From Oscillospiraceae bacterium (GTDB lineage Bacteria > Bacillota > Clostridia > Oscillospirales > Oscillospiraceae): a stretch of 64,000 bases of DNA. The position numbers and the translations under genes are program-made. The notes below the pieces were generated by a model. It searched no databases, had not been told where the DNA came from, and was given only the letters and a program-made list of their open reading frames with translations. Of this stretch, positions 49,948 to 58,293 are shown piece after piece. The stretch lies in contig JAFXTU010000059.1 in NCBI GenBank assembly GCA_017535635.1, forward strand, positions 1 through 64,000, in the 5' to 3' direction. Positions within the stretch are counted from its first letter, which is position 1. Each line of letters starts with the position of its first letter.

Positions 49948-49976
49948 TTTACAATTCCCTTCCAATCTGATAAACT
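49948..49976 (+). promoter_or_regulatory. Promoter for the MutS-like pair and ylmH
   Basis: TTTACA (49948-49953), 17-bp spacer, TAAACT (49971-49976). The predicted start of transcription (about 49983) excludes the upstream GTG at 49980 as start codon. Confidence 0.6.
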
Positions 49977-50009
49977 GCTGTGGATTCTGAACCAAAGGAA
50001 GCTTTGTCT

Positions 50010-51476
50010 ATGAGCTATCCAAGCTTGCTGTTTTCCGACCGGGCCTCCGGCGTCCGAGTGGAACCCCACGTCTTTGAGGACGTGAAGCTCACCGCCTTTT
50101 TTTCGGAGGAGTCGGTAGGCGCCATGCGCATCCTCTGCCGCCCGGAGGACATTCCGCTCCGTCAGGAGCTGCTTCGTTTCCTGAGTGAGGACCCCGCCTC
50201 CGGCAGAACGCTGCAGGAGCTCTCCGGGATCACGGTGGAGCTCCAGCGGCTCCACGCGGCCCTGCAGGACGTAAAGTGCGAAAACGAGCGGCACTATGTT
50301 TTTGTGGGCCTGATGGCCGCTGTGGCGGACTTTGCGGAGAAGGCAGCCGGCCTGCCGAAGGAGAGCGGCGCGCTGCTCCGGCGCTTCGGCGCCCGCTTCC
50401 GTGCCGACGCCGCCAATCCGGAGTGGTCCAGGCTGGCGGAACGGGCCAGGTCTCTCCGGGAAAAGGCGGAGATCGCCCGGCGGGAGACCTTCCGCATGGC
50501 CGGAGACAACCTCTGGATGCGGCCGGACTATCGGGAGAGCTATGTGGACCGGCTGCTGCGCTGCGCCGATGAGTTGGGTCTGGAGCCCATGCGTCCCCGC
50601 CGGGACGTTTCCCTTCGGCTGGACGCCCGGATGGTGAACGCTCTGGCCAGACTCCACCCCGAGGCTTTTCTGGCCTTTCGGGAATTCTATACCGAATTCG
50701 GCGGGAAATTCGACGAGACCATTCTCAGCTACCGCTTTGAGCTGAATTTCTACCTGGAGGCCCTGGCGCTGATGGAGCGCATCCGGGCCGCCGGGCTTCC
50801 CCTTTGCTGGCCCGAGACCAGCTCCCGGCGCCGCCTGGAGATCCGGGAGCTCTATGACATCTCCCTGCTGTTGAAAGAGGGCGTGAGCATCGTCCCCAAC
50901 GATGCTCTTTTCACGGAGGAGGAACCCTTCTTCTTCCTCACCGGGGCCAACGGCGGAGGCAAGACCACCTACCTCCGGGCCATCGGCATCGCGGTCCTTC
51001 TGTATCTCTCCGGCTGTCCCGTCTGCGCTGAAACGGCGGAGATCCGTCCCTTCCGCAGCGTTTTCACTCATTTCCCCAAGGATGAGCGCTTTGAGGCCGA
51101 CGGCAGATATGCCGACGAGCAGAAACGGGTTGGCGGGATCCTGGCTTCTCACGGGGGAGATAGCCTCATTCTGCTGAATGAGACCTATTCCACCACCAAC
51201 GAGGAGCTGGCCGTCAGCAGCACCCTGGAGCTCACGGAAAAGCTGAAATCCAGCGGCAGCTTTACCCTCTATATCACCCACCAGCGGGGTCTGGAGAGTG
51301 CCGGGGTCCCCTTTCTCAGCGTCATCGTGGACGCTCGCGACCAGAACCGGAGGACCTACCGCATCGCCCGGCGAAAGGAATTCGAGAGCTCCTTTGCCTT
51401 GGACATCCTTCGGCGATACAGCCTGGACGAGGAGAGCCTGATACGCCGGTTCCCCGGAGAGGAGGCAGGAGCATGA
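50010..51476 (+). CDS. MutS-like ATPase (no mismatch-binding domain), first of a pair
   Basis: 488 residues from ATG 50010 (AAGGAAG upstream). Helical lever/clamp region (about 50-290), then a MutS-type ABC ATPase: Walker A TGANGGGKTTYLR (about 311), QKRVGGILASHGG, Walker B SLILLNETYSTTNEE with Asn where MutS has Asp (DE), and THQRGLE. Lacks MutS domain I (no Phe-x-Glu) and any Smr domain, so it is neither MutS1 nor MutS2. Overlaps its paralogue by 4 bp (ATGA). Function unknown. Confidence 0.8.
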   Translation: MSYPSLLFSDRASGVRVEPHVFEDVKLTAFFSEESVGAMRILCRPEDIPLRQELLRFLSEDPASGRTLQELSGITVELQRLHAALQDVKCENERHYVFVGLMAAVADFAEKAAGLPKESGALLRRFGARFRADAANPEWSRLAERARSLREKAEIARRETFRMAGDNLWMRPDYRESYVDRLLRCADELGLEPMRPRRDVSLRLDARMVNALARLHPEAFLAFREFYTEFGGKFDETILSYRFELNFYLEALALMERIRAAGLPLCWPETSSRRRLEIRELYDISLLLKEGVSIVPNDALFTEEEPFFFLTGANGGGKTTYLRAIGIAVLLYLSGCPVCAETAEIRPFRSVFTHFPKDERFEADGRYADEQKRVGGILASHGGDSLILLNETYSTTNEELAVSSTLELTEKLKSSGSFTLYITHQRGLESAGVPFLSVIVDARDQNRRTYRIARRKEFESSFALDILRRYSLDEESLIRRFPGEEAGA

Positions 51477-52984
51477 AATTCAGCCTGTTGTTCCCTGCGG
51501 AGGAGGAGACAAGAGAATTCTCCGTGACCCCCTACCGGGAGGCCATGGAGGAGACCGTCTACGATCTCTCTGTGGACAAGGCCGTTCTGGAGCTCTGCTC
51601 CGGCGGCGAAGAGGGCCGCTATACCCTGGAGGTCCTGAAAAACCCGCTGAAAACCGTAGAGGAGATCGAATACCGGCAGGCGGTCCTGCTGGACTTCGTG
51701 GGCAATCCCCATCTTTTGGAGGAACTGCAGGAGATCTTCAAGAATTACGACACCCTCCAGAGCGACTGGCGGGAGATGCAGACGGGCATCTACACCTACG
51801 GCGTTCCCCAGACCTCCGGCGGCATTCTGGACGCCACTTATGAAGCCTTGAAGCTCACCGCCGCCTTTGCCCGGAAAACCGTCAGCTATTTCCGCTCCGT
51901 CTATGAGACCGTGGGCAAATATGAGGTGACCTCCCAGGGGCTCCGGGGCATCCGGGAATACTGCCGGGAAATGATGGAGAACCGCTCCCTGGATGAGATC
52001 GGCTCCATCTCCGCCTTATTTGAGCGGGAGACCGTGGCCCAATACCGCTTTAAGGTGAGAACGGAGACGGACGACACCCTGCGCATCGTTTCCGCCAGCC
52101 TCCAGGAGGCCCTGGAGCTGGAGGACGCAAGCCTTGCGGGAAAAATGAAGCGCCTGGCGGCAAAACTCACCAAAACCGCACCGCCTCCGGACGACACCCC
52201 GGAGGTGGACATGGGGGAATTCCACCTGGAGACCGCCAGGAGCATCCTCAACGAGGCCCTGTACGAGCTGTATACCGTACTGGGCGGCATTGCCGGAAAC
52301 ATCTATGAGTTCTTCCGGGGTCTGAGCGGTGAGCTGGGCTTTTACGACACCGGGCTCCGCTTCGTGCGGAGGCTCGCGGAGGCCGGGGCCCCCTTCTGCA
52401 TGCCGAAGCTCCTCCCCGGAGAGGACGACTGCTTCCGGGCCAAAGGGCTCTACGATCTGCACCTGCTTCTGGAGGGCATGCCCATCGGGGACATCGTGCG
52501 CAACGACGTCCGAATCGAAAACTGCGACGGGACGCTGATCCGCGGCGCGAATTCCACAGGCAAGACCTGCACCATCCGCTCCATCGGCGCTCTGATCCTT
52601 TTTGCCCAGGCGGGCTTCCCGGTCTGCGCGGAGAGCGCAGAGGTAAGCCTGCGGGAGATGCTCTTCTGCCAGTTCTCCTCCGCAGAAAAGGACTTCGACG
52701 CCTCCGACGCCGCCGGGCGCTTTGAAGGAGAAGTCAAGGAAGTGGCCGCCATCCTCCGGCAGGTCACGCCCCAGTCCCTGGTCCTTTTCAACGAGACCTT
52801 CCAGACCACCTCCTATGCCGAGGGGGCGGCGGGGATGGTCCACATCCTGGAGGCCCTGTCCAGGGCCGGAAGCCGCTATATCTTTGTGACCCACATGCCG
52901 GTCTTTGACCGGATGAGCTCTCCCCGGGTCCTGAAGCTGGAATTCGGCCGGGACTACCGGATCACCAGGCTGGAAAAATGCTGA
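51473..52984 (+). CDS. MutS-like ATPase, second of a pair
   Basis: 503 residues. Same layout as its neighbour: helical region (about 20-330), ATPase with Walker A RGANSTGKTCTIR (about 357), PVCAESAEVSL, Walker B SLVLFNETFQTTSYAEG (again Asn-Glu), and VTHMPVF. Like the first, no mismatch-recognition or nuclease domain. The two share the PVCAE(T/S)AE block after Walker A and are likely to form a heterodimer, as MutS ATPases work as composite dimers (inference). Overlaps ylmH by 7 bp. Confidence 0.8.
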   Translation: MKFSLLFPAEEETREFSVTPYREAMEETVYDLSVDKAVLELCSGGEEGRYTLEVLKNPLKTVEEIEYRQAVLLDFVGNPHLLEELQEIFKNYDTLQSDWREMQTGIYTYGVPQTSGGILDATYEALKLTAAFARKTVSYFRSVYETVGKYEVTSQGLRGIREYCREMMENRSLDEIGSISALFERETVAQYRFKVRTETDDTLRIVSASLQEALELEDASLAGKMKRLAAKLTKTAPPPDDTPEVDMGEFHLETARSILNEALYELYTVLGGIAGNIYEFFRGLSGELGFYDTGLRFVRRLAEAGAPFCMPKLLPGEDDCFRAKGLYDLHLLLEGMPIGDIVRNDVRIENCDGTLIRGANSTGKTCTIRSIGALILFAQAGFPVCAESAEVSLREMLFCQFSSAEKDFDASDAAGRFEGEVKEVAAILRQVTPQSLVLFNETFQTTSYAEGAAGMVHILEALSRAGSRYIFVTHMPVFDRMSSPRVLKLEFGRDYRITRLEKC

Positions 52985-53778
52985 ACCGGGAATACCGCGC
53001 CGAGCTGCTCCGCAAGTACGCCCGCAGCGCCGAGGACGACGAGCTGCTGGCCCGGGTGCTGGACAAGATCGACATTCGGGAGCGCTCCGGGCGAATGCAG
53101 CACAGCCGATTCCTCTCGGAACGGGACCGACTCTGCATCGAGCCCGTCCTCCGGGAATTGGGAACGACTGCGGTGTTCTGGGGAGGCTGCCCGGAAGCGG
53201 AACGAACGGTATTCATCCTCCCTGCCGACTGGCAGACGGAGGAACAGGTCAGGACCGGAGAGGATTCCCCCGTATGCGTGCTCCGGGCCCATTGGCGGGG
53301 TGCGGAGGGGCTTGGCCACCGGGATTTCCTGGGGGCCCTCATGGCCCTGGGCATTGAGAGGGACCTGATCGGGGACATCATCCCACGGGAGGGAAGCTGC
53401 GATATCGTCCTGCTCCGGGAGATCGCCCCCTATGTCCTGCAGAACCTGTCCTCCGCCGGGCGGACTGCCCTGACCCTGGAGGAGATCCCGGAGGCGGAGG
53501 CCCGGGAAGCGGAATTCCGCCTGATCCGGGATACCGTGGCCAGTCTTCGGCTGGATGCCATCGTAGGGAGCGGGTTTTCCCTCTCCAGAGAGAAGGCTTC
53601 CGCCGCCATCCGGGCGGGAAGGGTCACGCTGAACGGCATGGAGTGCCTCAAGCCGGACAAGCCGGTGGAAGCGGGCTCAAAAATCTCCCTCCGGGGCCTG
53701 GGAAAGATCCGGCTGGCGGAGGCCGGCGGCCTCAGCCGCAAGGGAAGGACCCAGGTGCTCATCCATCGATTCGTATAG
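52978..53778 (+). CDS. ylmH: S4-domain RNA-binding protein YlmH
   Basis: 266 residues. N-terminal YlmH region (HRDFLGALMALGIERDLIGDI is its signature, in pieces) and C-terminal S4 domain (GSGFSLSREKASAAIRAGR, VTLNG). In Bacillus YlmH sits in the ylm/divIVA cell-division cluster and has been linked to ribosome rescue; here it follows the MutS-like pair instead. Confidence 0.9.
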   Translation: MLNREYRAELLRKYARSAEDDELLARVLDKIDIRERSGRMQHSRFLSERDRLCIEPVLRELGTTAVFWGGCPEAERTVFILPADWQTEEQVRTGEDSPVCVLRAHWRGAEGLGHRDFLGALMALGIERDLIGDIIPREGSCDIVLLREIAPYVLQNLSSAGRTALTLEEIPEAEAREAEFRLIRDTVASLRLDAIVGSGFSLSREKASAAIRAGRVTLNGMECLKPDKPVEAGSKISLRGLGKIRLAEAGGLSRKGRTQVLIHRFV

Positions 53779-53865: not shown

Positions 53866-56800
53866 TCAGCTCTGGGGCTCCTCCCATTCCGGCTTCACCG
53901 GCACATGCTCCACGTCGACGGTCACACCCTCCGGCAGGAGAATGGTCATCGCCAGTCCGGGATCGTCATCCGGCCCGGCGGCAAACCACGCTTCTCCGGC
54001 CTTCTTCGACAGGTGCGTTTTCTCCTCTCCATCGACATGGTATTCATCTTCGTGATACATCCACTGGCTGTCCACATACAGATCATAGAGTACAGAATCG
54101 TCGTCGATCCCGATGTATACGCAGGGCTCCTCGGTATACTCCCTGACGCCGAAAATATGAGGATCGATCCGGTATCCGTTCACGCTCACCCAGGTGGAGA
54201 CATAATCGTTCCCGGAGGGTCCGGCAAAGGCCAAATCGCTCCCGAGGACCCGGATCACGGCATTCTTCGCCTCCACGATCTCGATCCCGCAGCCCCACTG
54301 CATGTACTCTCCGTCGTTATGAGACCGGAGCTCCGCGGGATTGCTGCCCAGCGCCACCCGCGTGGGGGCCCACATGTCAGAGATGCTGATGACTTCCACC
54401 GCGGAGGCGTCCAACTCCGTGATGTCCACACTGCCCTGCATGATGCGCAGTTCGTTGTAAGCCGGCATGACCCCGCAGAGCTTCACGGGAGTCTCACCTG
54501 CGTCGGCGTCGATCTGGAGGACGCTCCAGTTTCTCCCCAGCTCCCCGTTGAACTCATCCCAGGTCCTCAGGTTGAACCCGTCATCGTACCCGGACGAAAC
54601 GTCGACGGAGGTGCTGCCCACCGTCAGGGCCGAAGCGCTGTTGTAAGCCCTGAGCCATGCGCCGGGCTGGTTGTTCAGTTCACCGTTCACCTCCAGCCGT
54701 GCTGCCTCATTGCTGCCCGCCGAGCCGAGGGTGATGCTCTGGTTATTATCCAGGCTGTTTACCCGCAGGACACCTTCTACGGTGATATCCCCGTCGTTCC
54801 ACAGATGGCCTCCCAGGGTGAGGGCAGCTCCATGCTCCACGATCAGGCCGCTGCCCGGCTCGATGTTCATATCCATGAGCATGGACACGTTCTCCGTCAC
54901 GGTGATGGCGCAGTCCTCCCGGATATACACCCGGTGGAAGGGAGGATCGGAAGAGAGCGCAGCCGTCTTCAGTCCGGCAAGTGTGCGGGCCTCAAAGGCG
55001 CTGACCGCGTTGTCCGGGGCGCCCGTCACAGGGCAGTCCTCGGGACGGAATATGCTCCCGTCGTAGACCATCTCCCAGTTTTCCTCATCAAAGACACCGC
55101 CCTCGTGATACCGCACCTCAAAGACGCCGTCGTTTTCCACGGTGCCGGTGCAGGCGAAGCTGCCGTAGCTCCAGATCTCCACCAGACCGTGATCGATATG
55201 GGGAATGCCCTGCTCCCAGTCCTCTTCCTGCTCGCTCTGGATCACCAGCGTACCCCGGACGTCCAGCTTATTGGGAACAAAGAATTCCATCCTGTCCTCC
55301 ATGCCGTTCACCCGAAGCGCGTTATCCCGCGCCACGGTCAGGGTGACGCCCTCGGGAACGGTCAGGACGGTACCGACCGCGGTATAACCCAGGTGAGCGC
55401 CTTCCGCTCCCGCTTCCGCCTCGACCCAGTCCTGGAGCGCCTCGTCCCAGCGATACCACCTTTCCTCTTCATGGTTCTGGAGCCAGTAATCGCGGAAAGA
55501 ACCCAGGGTCAGGTCTTCGGTCAGGGTGATGTCCCCGCAGATGTCCATCCGATTGTAGCGGTTGTCGCAGGAAACGCTGTCGTCCTCAAAGGCTGCGATC
55601 CTTCTGAGCTGCTCCGCCTCGGCGGCCTTCATGCCCGCAAGGTCGAAGACCTGCGCCGCATAGTCGCACCAGTGGGAGTCGTTCTGTTTCTGATTCCAGG
55701 TGGTAAAGAAATCCTCGAAGCCGCTCAGGTCGCAGGGGTTGTAGTCCGCTCCGTACTGGTCCGTGATGCGCAGATATCCCTCGTTCAGGAACTCGCCGCC
55801 GCTGGGGACCGTGATGCTGCCGCCCCGGATATCCAGGCCGGAGGAGTTATAAGTGACCAGCTTGCCTGGAGAGGCCTGCGTATAGTCCGTATCCGAAAGG
55901 TCCAGACTGCCGTTGTTGACGAGACTGCCCCGGTTCACCAGACTGCCGCCCCGCATCGCCAGCATGGCCCAGGAGCCGTTGTCGGTCTCACCCACACCGG
56001 TGATCGCGTCGTTGTTCAGCGTACCGGCGACCGTAACGGAAGTATCTTCGCAGAAAATAATGCTTCGGTTGTTGAAGGTCGCTCCCGCTTCCAGGGTGAG
56101 GACGGCGCCCGAGAGGTTGAGATCCCCGAGATTCTCGACCGTGCCTCCCAGGAACCGGACGCTGCCGTTGAGCGAGGAATTCCCGTCCAGGATAACGCTG
56201 CCGCTGCTCTCCAGGCTGCCTCCGGCGTCCAGGAAGGAATCCGTAAATCTCAGGGACGCCCCCGCTTCCACTGCAATGTTCATGGAGATATAGCTGTCGA
56301 TCAGCTCCAGGCTCACGCCGGAGGGAACGGTGAGGGTATAGGTATTCCCGAACGCCTCCTGATCGATCGGCCCCAGGATGGCCAGCGCGAGAACGTCGCT
56401 GCGGTTGACCCGGATGTCTGTCCCGAAGGAAGTGACTCCGTTGCCTCCCTCAAAGCGAAGACCCCGGACCCCTTCCGGGTCCTCCGGAGCATCGCCGATG
56501 AGCTGAACGGCGCAGTCCCGGCTGAAGCCGTAGGATCCATCGTTCAGATAAAGCGCTCCTTCGGGCGCCTGTACGATGAGCTTGGCCGGGGTCCGGAAGC
56601 GGCCATCTCCCAGCGCGGCTGCCTCCGCAAGACTGCTGTTGTTTCCGCTCAGGGTCAGCGTCCCCAGCACCCGCAGGGAATGACCGGCAGGAAGATTCAG
56701 ATTCTCCAGGCTGTCCGCCCCGGTGAGCTCGATGCGGGGGTAGAATTCCCAGATCTCTCCCTCGTCCTCGTCCCGATAGAGATGCTTTTCCGCCTCGGCC

Positions 56801-58293
56801 ATAGCCTCTTCCAGGGTGGAGAAGCTGAGATGCGCTCCGCCTTCCTCTTCACTCAGGACCACAGTATACAGCGTTTCCTCCGGTTCCGGCGGGGAATCGC
56901 CGGAGTCGTCGTCAGGATCATCGACGCCGCTGCCGCTGCCTGTGTCTCCTCCGGAGGAAGCGGTCTCCTCCTCCAGCTGTTTGGTGAGGACGGTCTCCCC
57001 CGCCTCCACTGCTTGTCCGTTCTGCGAAACGCCCTGCGCGCCTTCCTCCACGGTGAGGGAGGTGCCCGCGGTGTTCACCTGGGTATTGCCGCCGGAAACC
57101 TGGGCGACATCCACCTTCCCTTCGCCGGAGACCACCACGCTCTCCGCCTGGGATTCCAACGCGGCGACCTTTGCGGACTCGTCCACCGAAAGCGTCGCGC
57201 CCTCGGCCTTTTCCGCCACAAGGACGGCGCTGACCTCGGTTTCGCCCCGGAGGCGCACATCCGCCCCCTCCGCCTTCACCGTAAGGCCCACCGCCTGAAC
57301 ATCCTCCAGGATGACCGGGGCATCGGTATCAATGACGATCTGATTGAATTCGCCGTCCAGAATAATGACGTCGCTCCCATCGTCGATGTAGACCGCCTCA
57401 ATGCGGCAGCCCTCCTCGGTGCGGAGGCGGACGCCGCCGTCCCCGGTCTTGCCGATGCGGGCGCTGCCCACGGTGGAATTGTTTTTCAGAATGATGGAAT
57501 GGTCGCCGCCGCCCCGGATCACCAGGCGGCCGGTGACCTCCGTACCGTCCAGCACGACCTCGCCGGAGCCCACGCCCTCTCCCAGGAGCAGATCGCCGCG
57601 GATCTTCATATCCTTCAGCGTCACGCCGGGGACGTTCACCATCACGTTCCCCTCCGCGTCGGCAGAGTATTCCCCGCTGCTGCTCACATAGGTCTTCAGA
57701 AGGTTGAAAAAGACCTGGGCAAAGGCTTCCCGGGAGATGTTCGCCTTGGGCTCCAGACCGGCCTGGGTGCCCTGGATGTATCCGCCCTCCACAAGGGCAG
57801 CCAGGGGCCCCCGGGCATAGCCGGAGATCTCATCCGCATCCGGGAACTTTTCTAACATTGTCTCGTCCCCGTCTTCCAGAAGGAAGGCCCGGGCGATCAC
57901 CGTAAAGGCCTGCTCCCGGGTGATGGGGGCATCCGGCTCCATCAGGCCGCTGCCGTTTCCCCGGAAGGTGCCCATACGCAAAGCCTTGGCCAGCTCCGGC
58001 ACATACCACGCACCGGCCTGAATATCCCGGAAACCGCCGAGATCCGCCGTATCCTCTGCGCCAAAGGCCCGGTTCACGATCGCCGCCATCTGCGCCCTGG
58101 TCAGCGTCCCCTTCGGGTCCAGCCGTCCGTCCTCTGTGCCTCGCAGCAGACCGTTGTCCACAGCCGCCTGAAGGGCGGCGTAGGACCAATGGTCCTTTTC
58201 CGGCATGTCCGGGAACTCCGGCGCCGCCGAAGCGACGGAAACCAGAGAACAGAGCATGACCAGGCATAAAAGAATGCTGAGCGTTTTCCGCAT
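53866..58293 (-). CDS. Giant secreted SLH-domain surface protein
   Basis: 1475 residues. Signal peptide (about 1-23, ending VSVASAA), three N-terminal SLH repeats (about 27-200: FPDMPEKDHWSYAALQAA, FRDIQAGAWYVPELAKAL, FPDADEISGYARGPLAAL), then a beta-helix-like region (about 215-420) with short repeated turns (VVLDGTEVTGRLVIRGG, VIILDGEFNQIVID), an Asp/Ser/Gly-rich spacer (about 450-480), and a second, longer right-handed beta-helix-like part built of GTL/GSL turns (ESSGSVILDGNSSLNGSV, GGSLVNRGSLVNNGSLDL). The exported protein should bind cell-wall polymer. It has only a few Cys residues. No enzymatic motif seen; adhesin or S-layer-associated protein likely. Confidence 0.88.
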   Translation of the reverse strand: MRKTLSILLCLVMLCSLVSVASAAPEFPDMPEKDHWSYAALQAAVDNGLLRGTEDGRLDPKGTLTRAQMAAIVNRAFGAEDTADLGGFRDIQAGAWYVPELAKALRMGTFRGNGSGLMEPDAPITREQAFTVIARAFLLEDGDETMLEKFPDADEISGYARGPLAALVEGGYIQGTQAGLEPKANISREAFAQVFFNLLKTYVSSSGEYSADAEGNVMVNVPGVTLKDMKIRGDLLLGEGVGSGEVVLDGTEVTGRLVIRGGGDHSIILKNNSTVGSARIGKTGDGGVRLRTEEGCRIEAVYIDDGSDVIILDGEFNQIVIDTDAPVILEDVQAVGLTVKAEGADVRLRGETEVSAVLVAEKAEGATLSVDESAKVAALESQAESVVVSGEGKVDVAQVSGGNTQVNTAGTSLTVEEGAQGVSQNGQAVEAGETVLTKQLEEETASSGGDTGSGSGVDDPDDDSGDSPPEPEETLYTVVLSEEEGGAHLSFSTLEEAMAEAEKHLYRDEDEGEIWEFYPRIELTGADSLENLNLPAGHSLRVLGTLTLSGNNSSLAEAAALGDGRFRTPAKLIVQAPEGALYLNDGSYGFSRDCAVQLIGDAPEDPEGVRGLRFEGGNGVTSFGTDIRVNRSDVLALAILGPIDQEAFGNTYTLTVPSGVSLELIDSYISMNIAVEAGASLRFTDSFLDAGGSLESSGSVILDGNSSLNGSVRFLGGTVENLGDLNLSGAVLTLEAGATFNNRSIIFCEDTSVTVAGTLNNDAITGVGETDNGSWAMLAMRGGSLVNRGSLVNNGSLDLSDTDYTQASPGKLVTYNSSGLDIRGGSITVPSGGEFLNEGYLRITDQYGADYNPCDLSGFEDFFTTWNQKQNDSHWCDYAAQVFDLAGMKAAEAEQLRRIAAFEDDSVSCDNRYNRMDICGDITLTEDLTLGSFRDYWLQNHEEERWYRWDEALQDWVEAEAGAEGAHLGYTAVGTVLTVPEGVTLTVARDNALRVNGMEDRMEFFVPNKLDVRGTLVIQSEQEEDWEQGIPHIDHGLVEIWSYGSFACTGTVENDGVFEVRYHEGGVFDEENWEMVYDGSIFRPEDCPVTGAPDNAVSAFEARTLAGLKTAALSSDPPFHRVYIREDCAITVTENVSMLMDMNIEPGSGLIVEHGAALTLGGHLWNDGDITVEGVLRVNSLDNNQSITLGSAGSNEAARLEVNGELNNQPGAWLRAYNSASALTVGSTSVDVSSGYDDGFNLRTWDEFNGELGRNWSVLQIDADAGETPVKLCGVMPAYNELRIMQGSVDITELDASAVEVISISDMWAPTRVALGSNPAELRSHNDGEYMQWGCGIEIVEAKNAVIRVLGSDLAFAGPSGNDYVSTWVSVNGYRIDPHIFGVREYTEEPCVYIGIDDDSVLYDLYVDSQWMYHEDEYHVDGEEKTHLSKKAGEAWFAAGPDDDPGLAMTILLPEGVTVDVEHVPVKPEWEEPQS

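Follow-up and report, generated by a model that had tools for sequence, protein, structure and literature searches.

A tandem pair of MutS-like ATPases with asparagine in both Walker B motifs: a probable heterodimer with relatives under a fluoride riboswitch

What is the role of two adjacent MutS-like genes when both encode an ATPase with an asparagine in place of the Walker B aspartate? The question arises from a 64,000-nt stretch of contig JAFXTU010000059.1 of an Oscillospiraceae bacterium (GCA_017535635.1), hereafter the window, whose positions serve as coordinates throughout. The genome itself, labelled G000, is 82% complete and comes as 61 contigs with a total of 2.0 Mb. An earlier note on this DNA had described two MutS-like frames of about 490-500 residues that overlap by 4 bp and lead into ylmH, and both the frames and their coordinates hold. 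Here, we argue that the two genes almost certainly belong to a family of tandem MutS-like pairs with Asn-Glu in Walker B and that their products very probably form a heterodimer. On balance, we favour reading this pair as an obligate heterodimeric ATP-driven clamp of the MutS/ABC class, perhaps one that remodels an enzyme. The genes are the following.

50010-51476, plus strand: subunit 1 gene (type A1), open reading frame (ORF) of 488 residues
51473-52984, plus strand: subunit 2 gene (type A2), ORF of 503 residues
51473-51476, plus strand: ATGA, the 4-bp overlap of the two genes; exactly the same overlap at 35 of the 50 loci where the two genes are adjacent

The ATP sites were compared across 165 family members and an outgroup of 13 proteins made up of MutS1, MutS2, KamC and an unrelated membrane-type MutS homologue. 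In the window's pair the relevant motifs lie as follows.

50943-50966, plus strand: Walker A of subunit 1, GANGGGKT (residues 312-319), from the sequence; the lysine K318 is present in 165 of 165 family members
51102-51107, plus strand: altered signature of subunit 1, Gly365-Arg366, from the alignment; Ser-Thr in MutS1, MutS2 and KamC
51177-51182, plus strand: Walker B of subunit 1, Asn390-Glu391 (LILLNE), from the alignment
52544-52567, plus strand: Walker A of subunit 2, GANSTGKT (residues 358-365), from the sequence
52715-52720, plus strand: altered signature of subunit 2, Gly415-Arg416; G415 is invariant in a 31-row alignment
52790-52795, plus strand: Walker B of subunit 2, Asn440-Glu441 (LVLFNE); invariant in the 31-row alignment

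The first residue of the Walker B pair is Asn in 161 of 165 family members and Asp in all 13 outgroup proteins, and the glutamate that follows this Asn is kept in all members but one (164/165). The signature position shows the same divide, with Gly in 154 of 165 members against Ser in 13 of 13 outgroup proteins, and the residue after that Gly is Lys or Arg in 156 of the 165. Hence, the observation of the earlier note that Walker A is kept while Asn-Glu replaces Asp-Glu in both proteins is confirmed, and the count across the family shows that the replacement is not a matter of chance. Since the Walker A lysine and the catalytic glutamate are intact, the changes in Walker B and in the signature are probably functional rather than signs of decay. 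In 39 family proteins, Phe stands where the switch histidine would follow Walker B (VTFLDE), a loss towards which subunit 1 of the fluoride-linked clade discussed below tends (for example L116:7332-8867). As read from the sequences, this loss suggests that the two sites are unequal, with one degenerate site per heterodimer. Four family members (L078, L079, L127 and L144) carry Asp-Glu (MDE..SST or SGT) and have no detected adjoining partner; they are possible intermediates between canonical MutS and the Asn-Glu family.

The trees, each from one FastTree run with low support at some nodes (0.50 for the whole family) and with KamC_L175 left out of the counts, place the first genes of type A with those of type B and the second genes likewise, with local supports of 0.75 and 0.87. 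This grouping of first with first and second with second genes suggests that a single ancient duplication came first and that the two copies have descended together since. The window's proteins fall one in each subunit clade, and both carry the Walker B Asn and the Gly-Lys/Arg signature. Distances in the two subunit trees correlate with r = 0.97 over 62 pairs, a figure that includes partly shared species history. G012 retains both type-A subunits, although they lie on separate contigs. It is from the mirrored trees, the fixed order with its 4-bp overlap and this co-retention, all of them indirect evidence, that we take the heterodimer to be obligate, in line with what the earlier note had supposed. 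That note had also left the class of the two ATPases unassigned, and the phylogeny now sets them in subunit clades of their own, with hallmark motifs that MutS1, MutS2 and KamC do not have. The family is distinct by motif and by descent, and could equal an uncharacterised subfamily of Sachadyn 2010 or Ogata 2011. In the papers that we searched, these proteins are nowhere described as paired and catalytically altered.

Pairing, which the earlier note had expected to be conserved if the idea was right, extends well beyond close relatives. Of 249 genomes sampled from the phylum, about 20 (hand count) matched a profile of 30 members strongly and over its full length, and most of these matches were adjacent pairs. 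Among named genomes, pairs occur in Bacillota, Actinomycetota, Chloroflexota, Acidobacteria, Proteobacteria, Spirochaetes, Thermotogaceae, Bacteroidetes, Atribacteria and a Thermoplasmata archaeon. The contig labelled as the latter holds a tandem pair at L124:813-3973 whose ORFs, as called, overlap heavily, and a fluoride riboswitch and a phosphoglycerate-mutase-like gene lie nearby. G000 itself has a second tandem pair, of type C, on contig C29:17524-20941 (L006:3525-6942), with 624 (as called) and 508 residues and Asn-Glu in Walker B. It adjoins asnA-like and molybdenum-hydroxylase-like genes, both of which recur in the congener G001 (L039); type C pairs have an asnA-like neighbour in G000 and G001 and an Xdh-like one in G000, G001 and G002. 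Overall, no constant partner was found among the neighbours of type B and type C pairs within the genus. An apparent 1059-residue fusion of both subunits in L147 (7266-10445) was rejected as Rosetta-stone evidence, because the end of subunit 1 is scrambled ahead of the second start in the manner of a frameshift. The frame of subunit 1 at L128:7335-8866 is likewise broken near its C-terminus, a likely sequencing frameshift.

What kind of protein is each subunit? In Pfam, MutS_V is the sole match above cut-off in both (3.7e-14 in subunit 1 and 6.3e-17 in subunit 2). MutS_III left a weak trace in subunit 2 only, and the scan of both subunits found no MutS_I, MutS_II, Smr or nuclease domain. AlphaFold2 models, made from alignments of the window and fetched-locus proteins, reached a mean pLDDT of 87.6 and a pTM of 0.85 for subunit 1 and of 82.5 and 0.81 for subunit 2. 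Compared with the PDB by VIA-align, both models match MutS, MSH2 and MutS2 over nearly their full length (Z of 24-29 and 22-28, respectively), mostly starting from around residue 260 of E. coli MutS; in subunit 1, residues ~10-480 align on residues ~260-790 of that protein. Profiles and predicted models thus show each subunit as MutS domains III (core), IV (clamp) and V (ATPase), lacking domains I (mismatch) and II (connector), and both proteins end after the ATPase domain with neither KOW nor Smr. The absence of mismatch-binding, Smr and nuclease domains reported earlier is thereby borne out. We are confident that mismatch repair is not the business of this pair.

The clamp that we favour would work as follows. 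Two non-identical subunits, each a core, a clamp and an ATPase, would form an obligate heterodimer with two composite ATP sites at the ATPase-ATPase interface, each built, by analogy with MutS, from Walker A and B of one subunit and the signature of the other. The changes from Asp to Asn and from Ser to Gly-Lys/Arg in both sites would alter metal coordination and favour a slow, switch-like turnover. ATP binding might then close the clamp around a bulky partner, which hydrolysis would release or remodel. As a guess, we would sooner expect a protein or an enzyme complex in this place than mismatched DNA, because in the largest sister clade the pair is controlled by a fluoride riboswitch and lies beside fluoride exporters and fluoride-inhibited enzymes (enolase, pyrophosphatase). 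In the window's clade the same machine would run under other control. That the pair remodels or protects proteins is a tentative proposal, to which we give a little less than an even chance. Such a role has precedent, since NCBIfam names KamC a reactivase and MutS2 is a MutS-class ATPase acting on a non-DNA machine, the ribosome (PMC10897456).

The fluoride linkage was established from gene neighbours, whose names were mostly read by eye from the sequence rather than by profile searches, and from Rfam. Around the pairs of the wide type-B clade we find enolase, CrcB, pyrophosphatase, phosphoglycerate mutase and UspA; enolase, pyrophosphatase or phosphoglycerate mutase lies near the pairs at L105, L106, L128, L138, L140, L143, L146 and L147. 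The fluoride riboswitch, RF01734, is present at the pair at L102, L104, L107, L116, L121, L128, L138, L143, L145 and L147, and in the operon that crcB and the pair form at L133. In a sample of 12 pairs of the phylum, selected by protein similarity alone, it lies upstream of 7 (L067, L068, L069, L071, L072, L073 and L075). It accompanies the pair at 17 of the 33 loci of the fluoride-linked clade, the largest of the family, that have usable upstream sequence, and 15 of these 17 switches are at most ~410 nt from the called start, one of them touching it. The association between switch and clade has a Fisher value of 5e-6, which ignores relatedness and uses hand-set denominators and is thus only a guide. 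A link between fluoride and mutS has been known since 2010: Weinberg et al. 2010 (PMC2864571) list mutS among the genes of the crcB motif, and a 2020 review repeats 'DNA repair proteins' for the riboswitch-linked genes (PMC7266159). From this linkage, we infer that the largest clade is the 'mutS' of the fluoride (crcB) riboswitch regulon. The linkage of these kin suggests a role in stress protection rather than DNA repair.

Several observations weigh against the favoured reading. Three of the 17 links between switch and pair are imperfect: subunit 1 is N-terminally truncated at L107, and at L104 and L143 the called ORF starts upstream of the switch, so that a later true start codon has to be assumed. 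At 26 loci, drawn from the window's clade, the Lachnospiraceae-type clade and type C, Rfam found no RF01734. G000 shows neither RF01734 nor CrcB in its 82% complete assembly, and its congeners, in assemblies 70-90% complete, show no CrcB and no RF01734 above cut-off. The leader of the window's pair is short and holds two features.

49948-49976, plus strand: promoter-like site 5' of the pair, a consensus match only
49994-49999, plus strand: Shine-Dalgarno-like AAAGGA, preceding the ATG at 50010

In Rfam this leader gave no match at the gathering threshold and nothing relevant at E up to 10, so no known riboswitch is recognised, and a fluoride riboswitch at the window's pair itself was rejected; crcB, enolase and pyrophosphatase are missing from its neighbours too. 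Because the window's clade lacks the riboswitch and its genome and congeners lack CrcB, the fluoride clue reaches the window's pair by descent only. It informs how a sister machine is used and not what this pair does. Dimerisation, ATPase activity and substrate are predictions from sequences and models, and the pair could, by analogy, be a nucleotide-binding switch with little hydrolysis, because residues 693-696 of E. coli MutS keep the Mg-bound water in place and substitutions there abolish ATPase activity (PMC3848065). Up to four tandem pairs occur per genome among relatives of G000, and such numbers in Clostridia where no CrcB was found suggest a use beyond fluoride. One might speculate further that the pairs are a new heterodimeric class of MutS-fold ATPases that rescue metal-dependent enzymes trapped by fluoride-metal-phosphate, that the motif changes adapt the ATP sites to this end, and that the window's clade is an offshoot rescuing other trapped enzymes in gut Clostridia devoid of a fluoride exporter. 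We regard this as rather unlikely.

Could the clamp close on nucleic acid instead? The pair would then bind branched DNA or RNA, as the MutS2 core does Holliday junctions, and repair or protect it. It shares the core-clamp-ATPase layout with the MutS2 core, and the loss of domains I and II widens the DNA-binding site according to a review of plant MutS proteins (PMC12292046). DNA-damage stress was moreover proposed for the crcB-motif mutS in Weinberg 2010 (PMC2864571). Yet, this proposal predates the recognition of fluoride as the ligand and rested on the annotation mutS (PMC7266159). No consistent nuclease, helicase or MutL-type neighbour was seen beside the pairs by eye, and the clade-wide link is to fluoride genes. 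We thus give a nucleic-acid clamp a minor, though real, share of the probability.

The earlier note had put forward another partner, the ribosome, on the strength of the gene downstream.

52978-53778, plus strand: ylmH, ORF of 266 residues with YlmH_RBD and S4 domains, in the same direction as the pair

Its start falls 7 bp inside the subunit 2 gene (52978 against the end at 52984), and its product matches YlmH_RBD (1.4e-12, 48.2 bits) and S4 (1.8e-6, 28.0 bits), both above the Pfam cut-offs. A 1475-residue protein with N-terminal SLH-like repeats (53866-58293, minus strand) is convergent with it. Under this hypothesis the heterodimer would split or remodel stalled ribosomes together with YlmH, and at first sight the genus agrees. 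The pair overlaps or abuts ylmH in all 4 genus genomes that have the pair (the window, L037, L041 and L047), and among G000-G006 YlmH_RBD occurs in exactly these 4 and in 0 of the 3 congeners lacking the type-A pair, but those three are only 71-76% complete. Usually, ylmH is regarded as widely conserved in Bacillota. The three-gene order is absent elsewhere in the same family (G008 and G013; L052 and L055) and from the distant type-A loci L093, L094, L096 and L097, and in G008, whose assembly is 96% complete, the pair is present but YlmH_RBD had no match. The co-occurrence is explained equally well by a functional tie and by a shared block that came or went in one piece. Hence, the link with ylmH is real but confined to one genus, and ylmH as a conserved partner was rejected, as both order and co-occurrence stop there. 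MutS2 does split ribosomes, and in B. subtilis it is recruited to them by its KOW and Smr domains (PMC10897456), which are what the pair lacks. Besides, a normal MutS2 is already present in the window, as had been noted; it has ~820 residues with a C-terminal Smr-like motif and lies on the minus strand at ~19.8-22.3 kb. A ribosomal role is therefore unsupported, and we consider it improbable.

A reactivase of an aminomutase, of the KamC type, is scarcely credible: KamC (NF052383), a free-standing MutS-class ATPase listed in NCBIfam as a reactivase, is the best NCBIfam match of subunit 1 (8.4e-15, colinear over the ATPase domain), yet the pair scores 54.5 and 60.8 bits against a curated cut-off of 300, the model scores MutS1 and MutS2 of the same genomes far above the pairs, and true KamC keeps Asp-Glu and the signature Ser in the alignment and clusters with MutS2 in the tree. 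Lysine 5,6-aminomutase alpha had 0 matches in 40 relatives, with a control set equally silent. Membership in the KamB/KamC reactivases was thus rejected on cut-off, motif and tree; as membership it is largely refuted, and the pair may act in reactivase fashion on some other enzyme. Anti-phage defence was discarded, as PADLOC gave only weak P-loop matches, and so was a phage origin, for which two PHROGs of unknown function matched in the ATPase domain only.

These results matter beyond one locus. The presence of a 'DNA repair mutS' under the fluoride riboswitch has since 2010 shaped guesses on the ligand of this RNA. If those genes encode paired ATPases foreign to repair, then the annotation is misleading and the fluoride response holds an unstudied machine. 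Furthermore, an Asn fixed where substitution kills the ATPase of E. coli MutS, together with the loss of the signature Ser, makes a puzzle of how such a heterodimer uses ATP.

How does the window's pair stand among known systems? The fluoride-regulon 'mutS' of Weinberg et al. 2010 is probably close kin: the clade that shares its linkage is the sister of the window's pair, likewise tandem, with Asn-Glu and a Gly-Lys/Arg signature, whereas the window's pair belongs to its own clade within Clostridia, has neither a riboswitch nor fluoride genes beside it and comes from a genome that lacks CrcB. From MutS1 it is set apart by the lack of domains I and II and of Asp-Glu and the signature Ser. With the MutS2 core it shares domains III-IV-V in the absence of I and II, as the structural matches of subunit 1 indicate, but MutS2 is a homodimer with canonical Asp-Glu and signature Ser and with C-terminal KOW and Smr domains, none of which is found in the pair. 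KamC resembles each subunit as a stand-alone MutS-class ATPase of ~500 residues and differs in its motifs and its place in the tree. Finally, eukaryotic MSH2-MSH3 and MSH2-MSH6 are, as the pair would be, heterodimers of paralogous MutS-class subunits, and MSH2 is the top structural match; these proteins differ in having mismatch and connector domains and canonical ATPase motifs.

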